Of a DNA stretch of 64,000 nucleotides, positions 1-9,516 are shown piece by piece (within the stretch, counting starts at the first letter, position 1; each line of letters opens with the position of its first letter). Made by a program: the position numbers and the translations under genes. The notes under the pieces are model-generated. The model worked only from the letters and a program-made list of their open reading frames with translations. It ran no database searches and was not told where the DNA came from. Source of the DNA: Cryobacterium ruanii (GTDB lineage Bacteria > Actinomycetota > Actinomycetes > Actinomycetales > Microbacteriaceae); contig NZ_SOHK01000015.1 of the NCBI RefSeq assembly GCF_004404055.1, positions 310,001 to 374,000 of the forward strand, read 5' to 3'.

Positions 1-2565
1 CGCCACACCGATATTGGGGTCGGGCCAGCGGCCCTGGTAGCTCTCGAAGATACCGATCATGGTCGCGCGATCGCGGGCGGCGAGGCCCCGATCCTGCGCC
101 GACTGGGCAATGAGCCGCTCCCGCAATCGTTTCAGGCCACCGGCAAAGCCAGCGAGATCGTTCTGATCGGTGACCAAGGCGAACTGCGCACTCAGGTGTG
201 CGGCATGCTCGGCTGACAGGGTCAGGGCCTCACTCCGTGCGATCTGGTCGAGTCGATCGTTCACCGTGTCCTGGGCGTCGACGATGCTGCCCTGTTCCTC
301 ATTGAGTGCTGCCCCGGTCTGGTCGGTAACGTGCTTCACTTTCTGCGCCGCGTCGAGTTCGAGGGTGAGCCTGGCCTCTTCATCACTCAGGCCTCGCAGA
401 ATATCGCTGCCGGCCAGCATCCGCTCTTGTTCGGTTTTTTTGCCCTGAATGCGCGTCGCGGTCGCGTCGACGTCGATGGCCGCCCAGGTGGTATCGAGAA
501 TGTGCTGGTGAGCGCCCTGCTGGGCGCGCAGTTGGGCGAGTTGCTCTGCAACAGAGAATGCCCGCCCAGCGACAGCGTCAGCCGCCAGCCCCTGCACGGC
601 CAGCTCCGCCGCTATGTCATCGAGCCGGGCCCGACTGGAGAACCCGATGATCGATTTCTGGCCCAGGTTCACGCCGTGGGCTCCGCGGGAACCGTTGCGG
701 GTCTGGCCGCCCGGGGTCACCCGTGCGGCTGTGCGTCCCGATTCGGACGGCCCCCCCAGCTCGGACGGGCTGGCCACACACAACGCGTCCAGGTTCGATG
801 ACCTGAGGCGTGCCTGCACCCAGCCACTGAACGGTGATTTCTTAACGTCGAGCTTGCCCGACACGTAGCGGGAGTCACCGGCGAGATCCTGGTGCGGCTG
901 CAGCGCCACACCCTCGAAGTGGATGCGCAGCGGCAGCTGCAGCGGATCGATCGCCGCGCTCAGGTGCGCGAGCCGGGTCTCGTCGACGAGCAGAACCTTA
1001 ACGACCGACGCGAGCGTCACCTCGGCGGCCTGCCGCCACTGTTCTTCACCGGCAGCGAGGTCGATGAGTTCGGCCACGAACGGCAATTCCTCCACCGGAA
1101 TGCCCGCGGCCTCGGCAATCAGCAGCCGAGCCTTGTGCAGGGCCTGCGGCACCAGACTCTCACGCCCGGTCAGGAACGCGCGTTCCTGCTTGAGCGAGCG
1201 GATGCCTTCCTCCACCGGGTATACCTCGCGCTGCAGTGCCGAGCGGGTCGTCTCCAGAGCGGTCTCCGCGGCGGCGAACCCGGCGGCAAACAGGTCGGCA
1301 CCCTGCTGGGCGACCGCAAACGCGGCGGCCGAGTCGATCGGCGTGGCCAGAGAGCGCACCCGGTCGTCGAAACCGGCGCGCTCACGAGCCACGTTGTCGT
1401 GCTGGTCGCCGAGTTGCACGAGTTCGGTCTGCAGCCGTTCGAGCACGTCCCCGCCGTTGTCGCGCTGCTGTTGTTGCAACTGCACGACCCGGGTCTTTAG
1501 CGCGGTTTCCCCGTCGCGGGCCTGCGCCTGCGCGGTCTGGTTGACTCGACGTGCGGCCCGGTTGGTGTCGGCGGCGTTCTCGAGCAGGGTCTGTTCGGTG
1601 AGCAGCTGCCAGAGTACGAACGGGGTGTCCCCTGTCCGGTGCACCCCGAAGGTGTCGACCAGGTCAGCCGTGGCGGTCGCGGCCATGTAGGACTTGTGCA
1701 GTTCAGGCAGGCGTTCAAGCACCTGGGCCTTCTGCGCCTCGGTGACCATGGCGCCGTAGGAGCGTTCTAGGTCTTCGAAGTGGTCGACCGCCTTGTCAGC
1801 GGCGGCAAAGGTCGCGGGCTCTTCAAGCACCATCGACTTGTATAGTCCGTCGACCGTTTTCACCTGTTGGCCAGCCTGGATGCGAGCGAGCAGGCGCAGG
1901 GCCTTGCCGCCCTCACCGTTGGCGCCGATGCCGAGGCGGGTGTACAGCGTTTGGGAGAACGCCGCGTAAGTGTCGAACACCTCGAGGCCCTCGAAACGGG
2001 CCTTGAGGGCACGCTTGTCGAACCGATTCTCGGCAAGCGAGGCGAGGTCGCGCAGGTCAAGGCTCCCGTCTGTCGTGGCCATTTTCATCGTGACATCGGC
2101 GAATTTGTGGGCGCCACGCGGCACGAAATAGGCCCGCAGCACGGTGAACCGTCGCTGGTTGTCGTCGATGAAGGTCATGGCGATACCGCCCCAGGTGGCT
2201 GCGTTTGCGCCGCGCAGCACCTGGTCGGTCAGCTCGTCGGTGCCGGCTTCCCGGTTGGCGTCGGTCTTGCCGCGCAGGTAGGTCATCAGGTTGCGCTGGT
2301 CGACGCTTCGCGCACGACCGGAGCCGGCATCGTTGGAAGCGCCGTTGAACGGGGTGTCGGAGGGCATCATGAGGGCGAGATAGGCGTCGAGCAAGCTGCT
2401 CTTGCCGGTACCCGACGCGCCGGAGACGAGCGTGGCCTGCCGCGCGAAGTCCATCTCGTGGTGGCCGTGGAAGCCGCCCCAGTTGACCAGCTGCATCGAT
2501 TCAGCTCGCCACTGGGTGGTGCCCTCGGTGGCGCCGTCGATGTAGAAAAGCGGGGAATCGTTCAT
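1..2565 (-). CDS. jetC: Wadjet JetC, SMC-like ATPase (C-terminus beyond window edge)
   Basis: SMC/MukB-like ATPase subunit of a type I Wadjet system, which recognises and helps cleave small circular plasmids. The minus-strand frame is open for 855 codons to the window edge, so the C-terminal part is missing. The N-terminus carries a P-loop at about residues 40-60 ([15 protein letters not shown]), followed by conserved text around [12 protein letters not shown]. The later visible part, such as [16 protein letters not shown] near residues 730-745, is rich in Glu, Arg, Ala and Leu as expected of a long coiled coil. The start ATG overlaps the jetB stop (ATGA), so the two are translationally coupled. 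Family assignment rests on gene order and motifs. jetD is expected immediately to the left of the window. Confidence 0.88.
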
Positions 2566-3218
2566 TCGAGGGGCTCCAAAAGCGGTTCGTTGTTTTCGTC
2601 GCGCAGCCAGTCGAGCAGTTCGCCGAGGCGCTCTACCGACAGGAGCACTTCGATCACGGCCGAAATGCGAAACCGGTCTGGGTCGCTGGTTTTCAGCAAC
2701 ACCCGTGCCTTGGCGAGGCTGTCAACCGCGGCCGACGCCTTACGGGCGTCGCCGGAGAGGTCGGTGGCGTGCTCCGGACGAAAGTGGCCGACGTTCTCGA
2801 CCAGGTTGTCGCGGTCGACGAGCACGATCTCCTGGCCATTGGCCCGCTCGCTGCGAAAGCGTTGACGCAGCAGTACGAGCAGAACGGTCTCTTCGCGCGT
2901 GTAGGCGATGTCGTGCAGAAGGGTGGGAAACCGCTCGCCGCCCTCGGCGAAAGCCTGCCGTTTGAACGCGACCTCGTGGTGCAGGTCGACGTGCAGGTCA
3001 AGGAAGACGTCGTTGAGGCGCGACTTGAGCAGGCTCTGCGACTTCAGCAGGGTCTGCCATTCTGCGGGCTGCAGGGCTGCCGAGATGTATCGGTGCTTCA
3101 GCAGCAGCACGAGGGTGCGGCGCTGCTCAACGCTCAGCCCGCCCTCGTCGCCCTCGAACAGCGAGAGGCTCGCCGGGGCGCTGTCGATACCGAAATCATC
3201 GGTCATGTCATCGGTCAT
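2562..3218 (-). CDS. jetB: Wadjet JetB (DUF4194 family)
   Basis: A protein of about 218 residues matching the DUF4194 family, the MukE-like accessory subunit that bridges JetA and the JetC ATPase in Wadjet complexes. Recognisable segments are LLKHRYISA near the N-terminus and [12 protein letters not shown] followed by [11 protein letters not shown] in the middle. I chose the ATG at 3218 ([10 protein letters not shown]). It overlaps the 3' end of jetA by 11 nt, whereas the longer frame starting at 3260 would run further into jetA. No strong Shine-Dalgarno is visible, which fits translational coupling. The 3' end overlaps jetC by 4 nt. Confidence 0.88.
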
Positions 3219-4770
3219 GCTGGGAACCCAAATTCTGGGCGGCCAGGGCCGCCGTGTCATCGTCGGTCAGTGTGCGGCGCGGCACGTCGAAGAACCGCAC
3301 CGAGCCATCCGGTCGCACCGTTTCGAAGCTTTCCAAGCCGACCACGCCGGTCGGCGTCGACAGTTGGGCAGCCAGCTGCAGCAGTCCGAGAATCTCGACC
3401 GGTCGGCGCAGGCTCGCGTCGAACCCATTGAACGCGCTGCCAACGGATGCCGCCGGACCCGCCGTGGGATTCGCGCCGGATCCCGCGCCGGATCCCACGC
3501 TGAAGGCCGCGACGAGGGCGTTGCGCAACTCGTCCAGCAGCGGCCCACCCTGCCGGCGCAGGTCGCTGAGGCTCGGCGCTGCGGGTGCCGCGTCGGAGAC
3601 ATCGGCCAGCGCCGGCGGCCCCCGGTGGGCCACCGGATCGTAGAAACGCTCGCGCAAATGCTCGACCTCGAGGGTGCCGGGCATGAGCTCGGCGGTGACC
3701 GTGGAGCGGGGCCCGGCGGTCTGCATCCAAGTGGCGAGTTCACGGTTGATGTCGCGCAGTATCCGCTCCAGCTCACGGTCTTTCACGACGTCGTGGTTGA
3801 CGATGTGCTCGCGCAGGGTGGTCGTGAGCCCCTTGCGCTGGGTGAGCACATTTTCGATGCCCGTGCGCAGCAGGGTCACCGTGCTCATGAAGCTGCGACG
3901 TTCGTTCAGGCTCAGTTCGAGGGCGAACGGATGCAACAGGATCGTCTCAAGATCGGCCTTGAGCCCCTGCATGAGTTCGTCGTTGCGCAGCAGGATGAAC
4001 GCGCCCTCGAAGGCGCGACCCTCAGCGGTCGACGACATGAGGGTATCCGTTTTGGCGAGGTAGTCGTCGAGGACCTCGCTGATCGGGCGTTCCTCCCCCC
4101 GAAAATCGTTCACGATCTGCCGGTGCATGGCCGCGACCGACTCTTCGACCCGTTTGAAATCGCTCGGCAACTGCTGGATCAGGTCGATGAGGTTGGCGTA
4201 GCCCTCGTGCATCTGGTCATTCGAGGCGGCTGCAATGTCGCCTCCGCCGGCGAGCCGGTCGCGTTCGCTGGTCAGTTCTTCGATCTGCTGTTCGAGGCGG
4301 CGCAGGCGGTCTTCACGGTCGGGATTGGCCTCGGTGGCCCGGTGGCGCACGGTGTCGACGATCGTCGCGAGCCGGGATTCGCTGATCAGCGCCCTCGTGC
4401 CGGCCAGACCGTCGACGAGCAACAGGGCTTCGAGCGCGTGGCTCGTAAGCGAGTAGTGCTCTACCCGTGCTTCACCGTCGGCGTCACCGCCGCCACGGAT
4501 CTCCCGGTAGAGCCACAGGTCGTTCATCCACTGCACGCAGAGGGCACGACCGGTTTTCTCGGGGGCGTCGATGCCGGTGCTGCGGAGGTCGGCGAGGTAG
4601 GCATCCACTTGAGTGTGCAGCAGCTCGCAGGAAACGCTGCGGCGCTCACGGCTGAACGAGGTCTTGAACACCGCGAGCACGAACGGCGCCCATTTGCGGT
4701 CGAGCAGGCGCAGGGTGGGTTTGTCGAAAGCTTCGCGTACGCGCGCCAATTCGCCGGCAATGTCACTCAA
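3208..4770 (-). CDS. jetA: Wadjet JetA (DUF3375 family)
   Basis: 520-residue protein of the DUF3375 family, the MukF/kleisin-like subunit of Wadjet. Typical N-terminal text is seen ([18 protein letters not shown], then VDAYLADLR). A coiled-coil region follows near residues 155-185 ([19 protein letters not shown]), and [16 protein letters not shown] sits before the middle domain. Residues about 430-455 form a Gly/Ala-rich linker ([15 protein letters not shown]), which may be variable. Translation starts at TTG, supported by GAGAGGAA about seven bases upstream; no ATG lies near. First gene of the jetA-jetB-jetC(-jetD) operon, each overlapping the next. The order matches type I Wadjet loci. Confidence 0.9.
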
Positions 4771-4834: not shown

Positions 4835-7054
4835 CTAACCGAGCAGGCGTGGTCGCTTCCAGTCGGCGCCGTGTACGTGCTGGTCGAGAAAGGCGAACAC
4901 TGTCTCGTACCAGACCACGGCGTGCTGCGGCTTGAGCACCCAGTGGTTCTCGTCGGGAAAGAACAGGAACTTGTGCTGGGTGCTGCCGTCGGCATTTGCG
5001 TGGTGTTCGGCGAGCTCCGACCAGAGCCGCAGGCTTTCGCCGATCGGCACCCGGTAGTCGTGGTCACCGTGGATGACGAGCATCGGCGTGACGATGTCGC
5101 GCACGGACAGGTGCGGCGAATTGTCGATCAGGCCCTGCCTGGAGAAGATGCTCTGCCAGTACTGCGAGTCGTCGGTGGTTCCGTTGAACTGGTCGAGCGA
5201 CCACAGGCTCGCGTGGCTGACGATGGCACGGAACCGGTCGGTGTGCCCCGCAACCCAGTTGGCCATGTAGCCACCGAACGATCCGCCCATCGCCGCGGTG
5301 TGGGTCTCGTCGATCTCCGGCAGTGCTTTGGCGGCATCAACGATCGCGAGCAGGTCGGTGTAGGGCTTGGCTCCCCAGGAATTCCAGCCACGTGCGATGA
5401 ATTCCAGGCCATACCCAGTCGAGAGCGCCGGGTCGGGCAGCAGCACCGCGTAGCCGCGGGCCACGGCCAACAGCGGGTTCCACCGCCAGCTCCAGGAATT
5501 CCAGCTGTTCAGCGGACCGCCATGGATCCACAGCAACAGCGGGGCCGGATGCTGCGCCGACACTCCCGCAGGCAGCAGCAGCCAGGCGCGCACCCGCGCA
5601 CCGTCCTCGGCTCGGGTCTCTACCTCGGTGATCGTGCCGGGCACGTCAGGCAGGGCCGCCGGTGTGGCGAGCATCGTGACGGCGCCGGAACGGCCGATGC
5701 GAACCGGATGGGCCGGTGCGATCCAGGAGGAGCGCAACGCCGCAAGGTCGCCGGTCGCTGCGTCGACGCAGATGTTGGTGTAGCTGAAGTCGTCGGTCGT
5801 GAGCTGTTCGGGGGGCCCGCCGTCGAGCGGCACGCGAAAAATCGGTCCGCGGCCGTCATGGTCGGCGGTGACGATGAGCGCGGTCGTAGTGCCGTCTCGT
5901 GGCGCGTCGAAAGTCAGGCTGGTCGGCCAGCGGTCCCACACGGCGGCGAGGCGACGGGGGTTGCCGCCGTCGAGGTCGGCGACCCAGATCTCCTGGTCGG
6001 CCGGCCCATCCGGTGTGCTGACGGCGGATCGCACGAAGGCGATCTGTCGACCATCGAGGCTCACCGCCGGGGATTCGAAATCGACTTTCACTTCGTCGAA
6101 CAGGGTGGTCTGCGTGCCGGTGGCGACGTCGATCGACACCAGGACGTAACGGCCGGAACGTTGCTCGGCCACCCGTGCGGCCACGATGAGCGTGCCTCCG
6201 TCGGGGGTCAGGGCCTGGCCGGCTGTGTCCATGGTGCGGGCGGGGATGGGCGTGAGGTCTCGAGGACGGGGGAGGTCGGCGGGGTAGGGAGCGGGGGCAC
6301 CCGCATCGCTGGTGCTGTCACTGTCACTGTCACTGTCACTGTCACTGTCACTGTCGGGGCTGTCGGGGCTGTCGGGGCTGTCGGGGCTGTCGGGGCTGTC
6401 GGGGCTGACGGGGCTGACGGGGCGTGCGATCGTGTCGTGCAGGTCGGCAAGGTCGAGCGCGAGCAGATGCGGCTGTGCCGGGCCGAGGTCGTGGTCCCAG
6501 AATCGCACCGGGTAGCTCTCGTGCAGAATGGCCGCGACCTTCTTCTCGGTGCGTTTCTTGCGGGCGAGGCTTTCCGCTTCGAGGCCGACGGGGCTGGGCA
6601 GCAGGTCGGCGGCGATCACGAGGGAGTTGGCTCCGGTGGCCACGGCGGCGATACTCGTCACTCCCCCGGCCAGGCGGGTGATCAACCGGGCCTCGCCACC
6701 GCCGGCGGGCAGCAGCCAGAGCTGGGTGGCCTCACCGTCTTTCCCAGCACCTTTCTCAGCACCCTCCTCAGCAGCTGTATCGGGCCGGCCGGAGACGAAC
6801 AGCACGTCGCCCGCGGCGGTGAAGGCCGCCCCGGATTCGCCCGCGGCCGACCGGGTCAGGCGGGTCGGAACGCCGGTACCGTCGGCCGGCACCGACCAGA
6901 GCGCCCGTTCATAGCTCGTGCAATCACGGGTGAGGGTGGCCACGGTGAGCACAACCCGGCTCCCGTCGGGTGAGAGCGCGAGGCCTTCCACTCTGGGCAG
7001 CGCGATGTAATCGTTCAGGCTGGAAAAGGGCGTGGAGTGAGACTTCGCTGTCAT
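4835..7054 (-). CDS. S9 family serine peptidase (acylaminoacyl/prolyl oligopeptidase type)
   Basis: 739-residue S9 peptidase with an N-terminal beta-propeller (WD40-like PD40 repeats such as EIWVADLDGGNPRRL) and a C-terminal alpha/beta-hydrolase domain from about residue 480. The catalytic serine lies in GGSFGGYMANW, the aspartate in HGDHDYRVP and the histidine in DENHWVLK. No signal peptide is seen, so it is probably cytosolic and releases N-terminal residues or dipeptides from short peptides. The unusual part is an insert of Pro-Asp-Ser repeats followed by Asp-Ser repeats at about residues 211-247, between propeller blades. It is encoded by the tandem DNA repeat at 6315-6423. Start is ATG at 7054. 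Confidence 0.9.
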   Translation of the reverse strand: MTAKSHSTPFSSLNDYIALPRVEGLALSPDGSRVVLTVATLTRDCTSYERALWSVPADGTGVPTRLTRSAAGESGAAFTAAGDVLFVSGRPDTAAEEGAEKGAGKDGEATQLWLLPAGGGEARLITRLAGGVTSIAAVATGANSLVIAADLLPSPVGLEAESLARKKRTEKKVAAILHESYPVRFWDHDLGPAQPHLLALDLADLHDTIARPVSPVSPDSPDSPDSPDSPDSPDSDSDSDSDSDSDSTSDAGAPAPYPADLPRPRDLTPIPARTMDTAGQALTPDGGTLIVAARVAEQRSGRYVLVSIDVATGTQTTLFDEVKVDFESPAVSLDGRQIAFVRSAVSTPDGPADQEIWVADLDGGNPRRLAAVWDRWPTSLTFDAPRDGTTTALIVTADHDGRGPIFRVPLDGGPPEQLTTDDFSYTNICVDAATGDLAALRSSWIAPAHPVRIGRSGAVTMLATPAALPDVPGTITEVETRAEDGARVRAWLLLPAGVSAQHPAPLLLWIHGGPLNSWNSWSWRWNPLLAVARGYAVLLPDPALSTGYGLEFIARGWNSWGAKPYTDLLAIVDAAKALPEIDETHTAAMGGSFGGYMANWVAGHTDRFRAIVSHASLWSLDQFNGTTDDSQYWQSIFSRQGLIDNSPHLSVRDIVTPMLVIHGDHDYRVPIGESLRLWSELAEHHANADGSTQHKFLFFPDENHWVLKPQHAVVWYETVFAFLDQHVHGADWKRPRLLG
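6315..6423. repeat. Compound in-frame tandem repeat inside S9 peptidase gene
   Basis: Six perfect copies of the 6-mer CTGTCA (6315-6350) run directly into six copies of the 9-mer TGTCGGGGC (6352-6405) and two diverged copies, TGACGGGGC (6406-6423). On the coding (minus) strand this makes (Ser-Pro-Asp)n followed by (Asp-Ser)n. Both units are multiples of three, so copy-number change keeps the frame. Confidence 0.97.
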
Positions 7055-7278: not shown

Positions 7279-9510
7279 TCAGGCGGCTGCATCCCCGAGA
7301 GGCGCGTCGCCCACCAAATACAGCCTCTGCGTGGCCCGGGTCATCGCGACGTACAGCGCTCCGGCACCACGCTCGGAGGCCGCGAGGATGGCCGTCGGGT
7401 CGACGACGATGACCGCGTCGAACTCGAGCCCCTTGGCGTCCTGCGGAGTGAGCAGAGCTATCTCCCGGCTCAGGCCAAAGGCACCGACGCCGAGTAGGTC
7501 GCCGAATTCGGTCCGGAGCACGGTTTCGAGGTCGTCCAGGCCGGCATCGACGACGATCACGGCGAGGGTACCGCCAGCCTTGAGCGCGCGGTCGCGGCGC
7601 ACCGCCGCTGCGGCATCCGCTACCGTTTCGACCGGCCATTCGCTCGACCGCACCGTGCGCGAGGGAGTGATCGCCAAGCGGTGCGAGATCGCCACCGTCT
7701 CGGCCGCGATGGCGATCTGGCTGGGCGTGCGGTAGTTCACGGTTAGCTCTTCGAGTCGCCAGCGGTCGGCTTCGGGCGAGCCCTCGAGCACCGGCTGCAA
7801 CGCCTCTTTCCAGCTGGCGGATGCCGCGGCGCTCGCTGCCTGCGCAATGTCACCGACGATCGTGAACGAGCGACGCGGGCCGCGCCGCAGTACGAGCCGC
7901 CACTGCATCGGGGAGAGTTCCTGCGCTTCATCGATGACGACGTGACCGTAGGTCCAACTGCGATCCCGCGCGGCACGCTCGGACGTGGTGGCTCGATCAT
8001 CGAGTTCGGCAGCACGAGCGGCAAGATCTTTCGCGTTGACCAGACCCTTCACCCGCATGTTCTCGATCGCCGTCTCGGCGTTCTCCACATCACGCTTGCG
8101 CTGTTCCTTGAGCGCGCGCTTCCTGGCCTGGTCGACCGCGTTGTACTCCCCGAGCAGCTCGGCCGCCTCATCGAGCAGGGGAATGTCCGCGATCGTGAAC
8201 TCGGCGTCGCGCGCACGGGCCAACAGCTTGCGCTGGGCGAACCGCCAACGCGGGGTCAGTTCGGCCAGCCACTCCGGCCGCGCGTACAGATCTTGCAGCA
8301 GTTTCTGAGGGGTCAGCGGCAGCCAGGCGGTGTTCAGCGCGACCCGCACATCGTCGGCCAGGCGCAGGTCCTCGCGCAGCATCGGAAGGTCGGTGTCGTC
8401 CATCGACCGGCCCTGCTTCTGCAACTGCTCGAGCCACACCCGGGAGAGCGCGTTGATGGCGGCCTTCACGAACGTGACCCTGGCCTCATTGTGGGTTTTA
8501 CCGGTGCCGCGGGCGCGCGCGATCGCGTGCGCCACGAGTTCGGGCTGCAAAACGATGCGGTCACCGTTGACGACGAGCACCTGCCCGGCGGCAGGGGTGC
8601 GCTGCCGGGAATGCACGGCCCGGGCCATGAGGTCGGCCATGAAGGCTTGCCCCTTGAGGGCCGCGACGGCGGGGGCATCCTCCCTGGTCGCCTCGACACC
8701 AGGAAACAGCTGCCCGACGGAGGCGAGCACGACGCCGGTCTCGCCGAGGGAGGGCAGCACTGCCTCGATGTACTGCAGAAACGAGCGCGATGGGCCGATG
8801 ATGAGCACACCGCTGTCGCGCAGACGATCCCGGTGAGTGTAGAGCAGGTAGGCGGCGCGGTGCAGCGCCACGGCGGTCTTTCCGGTGCCGGGGCCGCCCT
8901 GCACGACGAGAATGCCGGACAGATCAGAGCGGATGATGCGGTCCTGTTCCGCCTGGATGGTCGAGACGATGTCGGACATGTGCCCGGTTCGCTGCGCCGT
9001 GAGCGCCGCGAGCAGCGCGCCTTCACCCTGGTGCGTGGTGGCCGAAGGGTCGGAGAGCAGGGTGGCGTCGAGGATCTCATCCTCGATACGGATGATGCTG
9101 CGCCCCTTGGACAGCAGGTGGCGGCGGGCCCGCGCGCCGAGCGGCGTGGCTGCGGTGGCCTGGTAGAAGGCGCTCGCCTGCGGCACCCGCCAATCCAGCA
9201 ATAGGGGTTTGTGGTCGGTGTCACGCAGTCCGACCCGGCCGATGTAGCGGTAGACGGAGTCGCCCGAGTCGTCCGGCATGGTTTCGAGCCGGCCGAAGGC
9301 CAGCCGGTCGTCGACCTCCCGCAACTGCACGATGCGGTCCTCGTAGAGGCGCGCGAAAGTGTCGCGTTCACTGCGGGACTGGTGGTTGCCGCCGACGTCG
9401 AGGCGGCGCACCGCTGTGAGCTGACCTTCCGCTTCCCGGGCCAGCGCGTCCAGCCGCGCGTACAGCGCCCGGACATAGTTCTGTTCCCGAACAAGCTCCT
9501 GGTCGATCAC
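7279..9510 (-). CDS. helR: HelD/HelR-family RNA polymerase-recycling ATPase
   Basis: A UvrD/Rep-like superfamily 1 ATPase of about 743 residues, of the HelD type, which releases stalled RNA polymerase from nucleic acid. Actinobacterial HelR members also displace rifamycins. The N-terminal arm has coiled-coil character (YARLDALAREAEGQL). The Walker A motif is GGPGTGKTAVALHRAAY at about residue 210, the DEAQELSP box is at about 535, and a C-terminal helicase segment follows (AKGLEFDAVIVVDP, then ALYVAMTRATQRLYLVG). I prefer the GTG at 9510, because AAGGGG lies five bases upstream of it; the in-frame GTG at 9516 abuts that sequence. HelR rather than HelD rests on the phylum and overall layout, without an alignment. 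Confidence 0.85.
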   Translation of the reverse strand: MIDQELVREQNYVRALYARLDALAREAEGQLTAVRRLDVGGNHQSRSERDTFARLYEDRIVQLREVDDRLAFGRLETMPDDSGDSVYRYIGRVGLRDTDHKPLLLDWRVPQASAFYQATAATPLGARARRHLLSKGRSIIRIEDEILDATLLSDPSATTHQGEGALLAALTAQRTGHMSDIVSTIQAEQDRIIRSDLSGILVVQGGPGTGKTAVALHRAAYLLYTHRDRLRDSGVLIIGPSRSFLQYIEAVLPSLGETGVVLASVGQLFPGVEATREDAPAVAALKGQAFMADLMARAVHSRQRTPAAGQVLVVNGDRIVLQPELVAHAIARARGTGKTHNEARVTFVKAAINALSRVWLEQLQKQGRSMDDTDLPMLREDLRLADDVRVALNTAWLPLTPQKLLQDLYARPEWLAELTPRWRFAQRKLLARARDAEFTIADIPLLDEAAELLGEYNAVDQARKRALKEQRKRDVENAETAIENMRVKGLVNAKDLAARAAELDDRATTSERAARDRSWTYGHVVIDEAQELSPMQWRLVLRRGPRRSFTIVGDIAQAASAAASASWKEALQPVLEGSPEADRWRLEELTVNYRTPSQIAIAAETVAISHRLAITPSRTVRSSEWPVETVADAAAAVRRDRALKAGGTLAVIVVDAGLDDLETVLRTEFGDLLGVGAFGLSREIALLTPQDAKGLEFDAVIVVDPTAILAASERGAGALYVAMTRATQRLYLVGDAPLGDAAA

Positions 9511-9516
9511 GAACAC

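Follow-up and report, generated by a model that had tools for sequence, protein, structure and literature searches.

In type I Wadjet systems, also known as MksBEFG or EptABCD, the JetA, JetB and JetC proteins form a loop-extruding motor, and complete extrusion of a circle leads to activation of JetD, the nuclease encoded in the same operon (PMC12647877). The MksBEFG system of Corynebacterium glutamicum was found to act on plasmids and not on the chromosome (PMC7083940, PMC10123090). Nuclease-free relatives are also on record: MksBEF complexes arise by loss of JetD (PMC10586767), and in Pseudomonas aeruginosa, where SMC and MksBEF are both present, the JetD-less complex acts on the chromosome (PMC7485682). 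In Stenotrophomonas maltophilia jetABC without jetD is frequent in the species, this 'incomplete Wadjet I' being called probably inactive (PMC11680222), and in enterobacteria the KITE-type SMC complex MukBEF has apparently replaced Smc-ScpAB (PMC10586767). The subject of the present analysis is a jetABC operon of Cryobacterium ruanii, located on the minus strand at the left edge of a 64,000-nucleotide stretch of contig NZ_SOHK01000015.1 (positions 310,001 to 374,000; G000:C17:310001-374000 in our numbering), the whole of which is called the window. A preliminary description had taken it for a Wadjet anti-plasmid operon. Its three genes are indeed type I Wadjet homologues, but no JetD nuclease accompanies them, which makes it an incomplete Wadjet, and we favour, with a probability of about 0.65, the interpretation that JetABC is an MksBEF-type condensin acting on the chromosome beside Smc-ScpAB, and not a working Wadjet, the nuclease having been lost in an ancestor.

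With type I Wadjet the operon shares the JetA, JetB and JetC profiles, the A-B-C gene order, the overlapping starts and the SMC ATPase motifs, but it differs by the lack of JetD (at the locus, and in the genome as judged by two Pfam domains) and by its presence in most of the genus. As in P. aeruginosa MksBEF, there are three subunits, no nuclease and a coexisting Smc-ScpAB, a likeness of composition rather than of compared sequences; unlike MksBEF, the lineage sits inside actinobacterial type I Wadjet. The frequency of the JetD-less form recalls S. maltophilia, but here the selection data argue for activity. MukBEF belongs to a different sequence family (the MukB Pfam model scores 22.7 bits against JetC, below its cut-off of 23), and Cryobacterium, unlike the enterobacteria, still keeps Smc-ScpAB. 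Calling Wadjet by jetABC alone leads to plasmid restriction being predicted, probably wrongly, for most of the genus and for several other lineages. The case touches the question of how an SMC motor switches between plasmid cutting and chromosome folding, for which natural test material is provided by a Cryobacterium that has both a JetD-containing and a JetD-less copy, by Nocardioides relatives with and without jetD next to jetC, and by a family in which JetA is present but ScpA almost never.

Identification of the jetABC operon

The identity of the three genes, initially proposed from their signatures and overlapping order, was confirmed by hidden Markov model (HMM) searches. The DUF3375 model matched JetA with 324 bits (Pfam cut-off, 28.6) over profile positions 1-472 of 474, and the DUF4194 model matched JetB with 117 bits (cut-off, 32.7); the PADLOC profiles JetA1 (E = 5.6e-177), JetB1 (3.1e-104) and JetC1 (E = 0) all matched the corresponding products, and JetC also matched SbcC_Walker_B/AAA_29 of Pfam. 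The ATPase motifs of JetC, namely Walker A, the SGGE signature and Walker B (VFLDEG), are present. None of the NCBIfam models matched JetA, JetB or JetC of the window. DUF3375 gave a single match in the C. ruanii genome. AlphaFold gave a weak model of JetA (predicted local distance difference test score, pLDDT, 65; predicted template modelling score, pTM, 0.31) and little was gained from it beyond the HMMs, all eight of its PDB matches at E ≤ 0.001 being chains of JetABC entries with a query-normalised TM-score of 0.25-0.29.

The end of jetC, thought to be missing, is present on the contig, where the gene is entire (1150 aa, G000:C17:309113-312565, corresponding to L001:9113-12565 in the numbering of the extracted locus). 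The TTG start codon of jetA, preceded by AGGAA 7 nt upstream, was found as described; at the aligned position the 37 copies of the genus have TTG (13), GTG (16) or ATG (8). jetB and jetC overlap by 4 nt in the window. The longest open reading frame (ORF) of jetB overlaps jetA by 53 nt, but the overlap is 8 nt in 18 of the 37 genus copies, and the true start of jetB is probably the ATG at 3218, with an overlap of 11 nt.

Absence of JetD in the genome and in the genus

Lack of a jetD-like gene within about 2 kb to the left had been named beforehand as grounds for rejecting the Wadjet interpretation, and this is what was found. No HMM match to jetD was obtained within 9 kb left of jetC, and JetD_C (PF09983) and DUF3322 (PF11795) gave no match each in the whole genome (completeness, 99.98%); no separate search was made for the JetD domains of other Wadjet types. 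An assembly gap hiding jetD at its usual position is ruled out by the 9.1 kb of sequence that follow jetC on the 408-kb contig. Thus, with the nuclease lacking, the operon falls short of a full anti-plasmid Wadjet, and the same pattern throughout the genus points to a different role rather than to a truncated window.

Two sets of genomes, which overlap so that their counts are not additive, were considered: 100 relatives, 56 of which belong to the same genus, and named genomes, in which the best 80 of 440 loci from a JetC scan were kept and JetD was searched for at the locus only, by means of a profile derived from 13 JetD sequences. DUF3375 was found in 71 of the 100 relatives and JetD_C in 35. 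A jetA gene of the window's class (approx. 320-370 bits, hereafter core class) is present in 52 of the 56 genomes of the genus (36 loci read, 16 assigned by score alone), being absent from G001, G006, G022 and G028. In the 36 read loci jetA, jetB and jetC are approximately 62-90% identical to those of the window, and no JetD profile match lies beside the core jetABC in any of them. JetD_C does occur anywhere in 23 of the 56 genomes, with short frames only (104-215 aa) in G014, G016, G034 and G049, and 31 of the 56 combine a core-class jetA with no JetD match anywhere. Among the best 80 of 440 named loci, 19 have JetD, each time right after jetC and with E < 1e-80, and 61 gave no JetD match, including 37 of 37 from Cryobacterium; for L156, L163 and L204, with less than 1 kb of sequence after jetC, the test is incomplete.

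Full Wadjets with jetD are also found in Cryobacterium, as other jetABC lineages: the JetD-containing copies of the genus that were included in the JetC tree (L098, L112-L117 and L119) lie apart from the core clade. Both types occur together in one Cryobacterium genome, L117 with JetD (G051:C39) and L064 without it (G051:C43). In another genome, which has the core copy L091, a second locus (L099, G009:C30) retains jetA and a partial jetB match with no jetC, as in a decayed operon.

Probable loss of JetD on the JetC tree

When the presence of JetD was mapped on a JetC tree of 60 rows, built with a quick method, eight changes were needed, seven of them forced by strong (starred) branches, and the number is still eight after removal of L156 and L204. 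With JetD never regained, there would be 11 losses without these two rows and 13 with them. The JetD-less Cryobacterium clade adjoins Glaciihabitans, which has JetD and a JetC 68% identical in the best segment; another JetD-containing neighbour of the clade is Streptosporangium, with a JetC 57% identical. From the tree, loss of JetD in an ancestor is inferred, rather than JetD never having been gained. Absence of jetD with the motor kept can be seen in Nocardioides, where the 1147 nt that hold jetD in one locus (L194:12388-13534) face 4 nt in a related JetD-less one (L202:12367-12370), the alignment of the two running to the jetC end and resuming directly behind jetD. Identity in the remaining aligned blocks is mostly 83-94%, with further insertions or deletions elsewhere in the locus.

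The JetD proteins of the nearest relatives that have one keep nearly all of the 37 columns on which 88% or more of 35 JetD rows agree, and the identities of JetC and JetD are correlated (r = 0.83 for 26 operons, L171 being entered with an 82-residue JetD piece only). In the pairs checked near the JetD-less clades, JetD is far more diverged than JetC (JetC 0.89 and JetD 0.55 in Nocardioides; 0.73 and 0.47 in Glaciihabitans), so that JetD also undergoes fast evolution or replacement, and its regain or recombinational replacement is possible there.

Selection and integrity of jetABC

Purifying selection acts on all three genes. The ratio of nonsynonymous to synonymous substitution rates (dN/dS) for jetA, jetB and jetC of the window versus five relatives is 0.07-0.17 (15 values); for genes nearby it is 0.07-0.19 (11 values). 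In 35 of 37 JetCs all three ATPase motifs (Walker A, SGGE and Walker B) are intact. Together with the presence of the class in 52 of the 56 genomes, the dN/dS values show that selection maintains jetABC as a component of the backbone of the genus. jetC is split into two frames in two of the 37 read copies (G021 and G030) and also in Cryobacterium breve ERMR7:08; one of the breaks in G021 and G030 is at a T run and the other in a GC-rich linker, and thus sequencing error is possible.

Proposed function and its alternatives

The subunit set, with no nuclease, is that of MksBEF, and the C. ruanii genome also encodes Smc, ScpA and ScpB. By analogy with the family, JetC (a MukB-like SMC ATPase), JetA (the kleisin) and JetB (the KITE subunit) would extrude DNA loops on the chromosome, and JetABC would serve, like MksBEF in Pseudomonas, as a condensin additional to Smc-ScpAB. 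Since extrusion precedes JetD activation, a motor deprived of JetD should extrude and not cut, so that, after loss of JetD in the ancestor, plasmids would no longer be cleaved.

Several observations weigh against this assignment. The C. glutamicum MksB protein, which works with the nuclease MksG, has no detectable role in chromosome organization (PMC7083940), so that a chromosomal role does not follow from possession of the motor. The operon is not essential, as indicated by the four of 56 genomes without the jetA class and by the frame-shifted jetC of two of 37 copies. The G021 copy groups with Leifsonia and Microterricola, apart from the rest of the genus, and two pairs of JetD-containing Wadjets gave dN/dS values for jetA and jetC of 0.09-0.11, those of the window genes being somewhat higher. 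Finally, in the N-terminal tail of JetB the motif SLFEGDEG is found in 37 of 37 genus copies, the remaining tail being strongly variable, as if something still docked on the JetD-less complex. In type I Wadjet an IFDR motif of the JetB N-terminus is among the contacts of JetD (PMC10586767), and SLFEGDEG is possibly its counterpart.

The latter finding would suit a complex that is still directed against plasmids, in which JetABC senses small circles and recruits through the JetB tail an unlinked effector not homologous to JetD. The looser motif LFxGD is present in 58 of the 60 JetD-less named loci with an identified jetB, but also in 14 of the 18 with JetD, so that the motif may serve the motor itself. 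Nor is a fourth gene common to the loci. By ORF clustering, which covers linked ORFs only, an unrelated gene in place of jetD was rejected, the top flanking cluster occurring in only 16 of the 37 core loci and no cluster in more than three of the 24 non-Cryobacterium JetD-less loci. We regard such an effector as unlikely. As a marker of JetD the tail motif is doubtful, for it occurs with and without JetD and is absent from JetB of two genomes of a further family, discussed below.

A nuclease-free form of immunity may be envisaged instead, with circles trapped or silenced by complete extrusion without cutting, as Smc5/6 does with viral episomes. To our knowledge no trapping or silencing activity of JetABC has been described, which counts against it. 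That JetABC extrudes plasmids before JetD acts (PMC12647877), and that jetD alone can be missing with the motor kept, as in the Nocardioides pair, would be in line with this mechanism, but in C. glutamicum null alleles of mksG alone raised the plasmid copy number (PMC10123090), and we consider it improbable. A dead Wadjet on its way out, as proposed for Stenotrophomonas (PMC11680222), would account for the missing jetD and the jetC frameshifts of G021, G030 and C. breve, but it is disfavoured by the dN/dS values, the intact motifs and the wide presence of the class, and appears very unlikely.

A possible parallel case in a second family

The proposed chromosomal role of JetABC receives indirect support from a family of the same order (f12; 47 genomes of six genera), which we guess to be Dermabacteraceae. 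JetA was found in 47 of 47 genomes (only a piece in G127; a split copy and a second full copy in G116), ScpA in one, and the SMC hinge in two, with a borderline score (22.5 bits) in one; ScpB was not searched for in this family. JetD is present in eight of the 47, one being a 28-bit fragment. G142, the sole genome that combines ScpA with a clear SMC hinge, carries JetD as well. Two genomes were read at the locus level, G071 and G088, which are those without the JetB tail motif; their jetA, jetB and jetC have open frames but lie several kb apart, with a span of approximately 18 kb in G071. Thus, Smc-ScpAB looks to have been replaced by a nuclease-free JetABC, in parallel with the replacement by MukBEF in enterobacteria. 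The loci L107, L108, L212 and L213 belong to this case. The JetC of the two genomes read groups with the JetD-containing Cryobacterium Wadjets (support 90, unstarred) and not with the clade of the window, so that the loss of JetD looks independent.

A more general scheme, for which we see about even odds, is that in Actinobacteria the Wadjet motor repeatedly shed its nuclease to become a chromosome condensin, which in nearly all of this second family replaced Smc-ScpAB as a second MukBEF-like case, Cryobacterium being an intermediate with both condensins. JetD-less complexes acting on the chromosome are already known from Pseudomonas. No paper on Wadjet in Cryobacterium was found in the open-licence PMC literature, nor, in the available portions of the matches listed, anything on the recurrence of JetD-less systems in Actinobacteria or on SMC loss in candidates for the second family.

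Neighbouring genes and tandem repeats

The features of the locus are collected in table 1. The S9 peptidase gene adjoins jetABC in the subclade of the window and in no other loci. The HelR/HelD-type protein has motor_HelR_2 as its best NCBIfam model, with 574 bits, below the curated cut-off of 1100. Downstream of jetC are genes for a hydrophobic protein of 205 aa, confined to the window's subclade, for another of 150 aa on the opposite strand (both without a Pfam match), and for an FdhF/YdeP oxidoreductase. A helical-looking protein of 185-193 aa is encoded before jetA or after jetC, depending on the Cryobacterium group, in 14 of 37 loci (L063-L097); since it is present in 60 of the 100 relatives and, in C. 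ruanii, lies on another contig (G000:C21:58769-59311), it is a neighbour and not a proven partner. The gene that follows jetC in three Galactobacter/Arthrobacter loci proved to encode a BenE-like transporter (one by Pfam, two by homology).

Table 1. Features at and around the jetABC operon (window positions unless a contig or locus prefix is given).
Feature	Position	Strand	Remarks	Match
jetC (SMC/MukB-like ATPase)	1-2565	-	cut by the window edge; N-terminal 855 of 1150 aa within the window	PADLOC JetC1
jetC, remainder	G000:C17:309113-310000	-	extends 888 nt beyond the left window edge	
jetB (KITE/MukE-like, DUF4194)	2562-3260	-	longest ORF	Pfam; PADLOC JetB1
jetA (kleisin, DUF3375)	3208-4770	-	520 aa; TTG start	Pfam; PADLOC JetA1
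S9 prolyl-oligopeptidase	4835-7054	-	upstream of jetA	Pfam PF00326
HelR/HelD-type RNA polymerase recycling ATPase	7279-9516	-		motor_HelR_2
Tandem repeat in jetC	L001:9540-9610			
Tandem repeat in jetB	L001:13196-13219			
Tandem repeat in jetA	L001:13472-13500			
Tandem repeat in S9 gene	6315-6423			

The Gly/Ala linker of JetA, which had been suggested to set the protein apart from known members, does exist and is the longest among the 37 copies. However, it is encoded by a 12-nt tandem repeat, and shorter Gly/Ala/Ser stretches are found in five relatives of the subclade, so that, with a repeat-based length that varies among close relatives, its value as a meaningful difference is weakened. 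In-frame tandem repeats with units of 6-18 nt are also present in jetB, jetC and the adjoining S9 gene; the four sets encode Asn/Gly/Ser, Asp/Met/Thr, Gly/Ala and Ser/Pro/Asp stretches, and the lengths of those in jetA and jetC vary among relatives.

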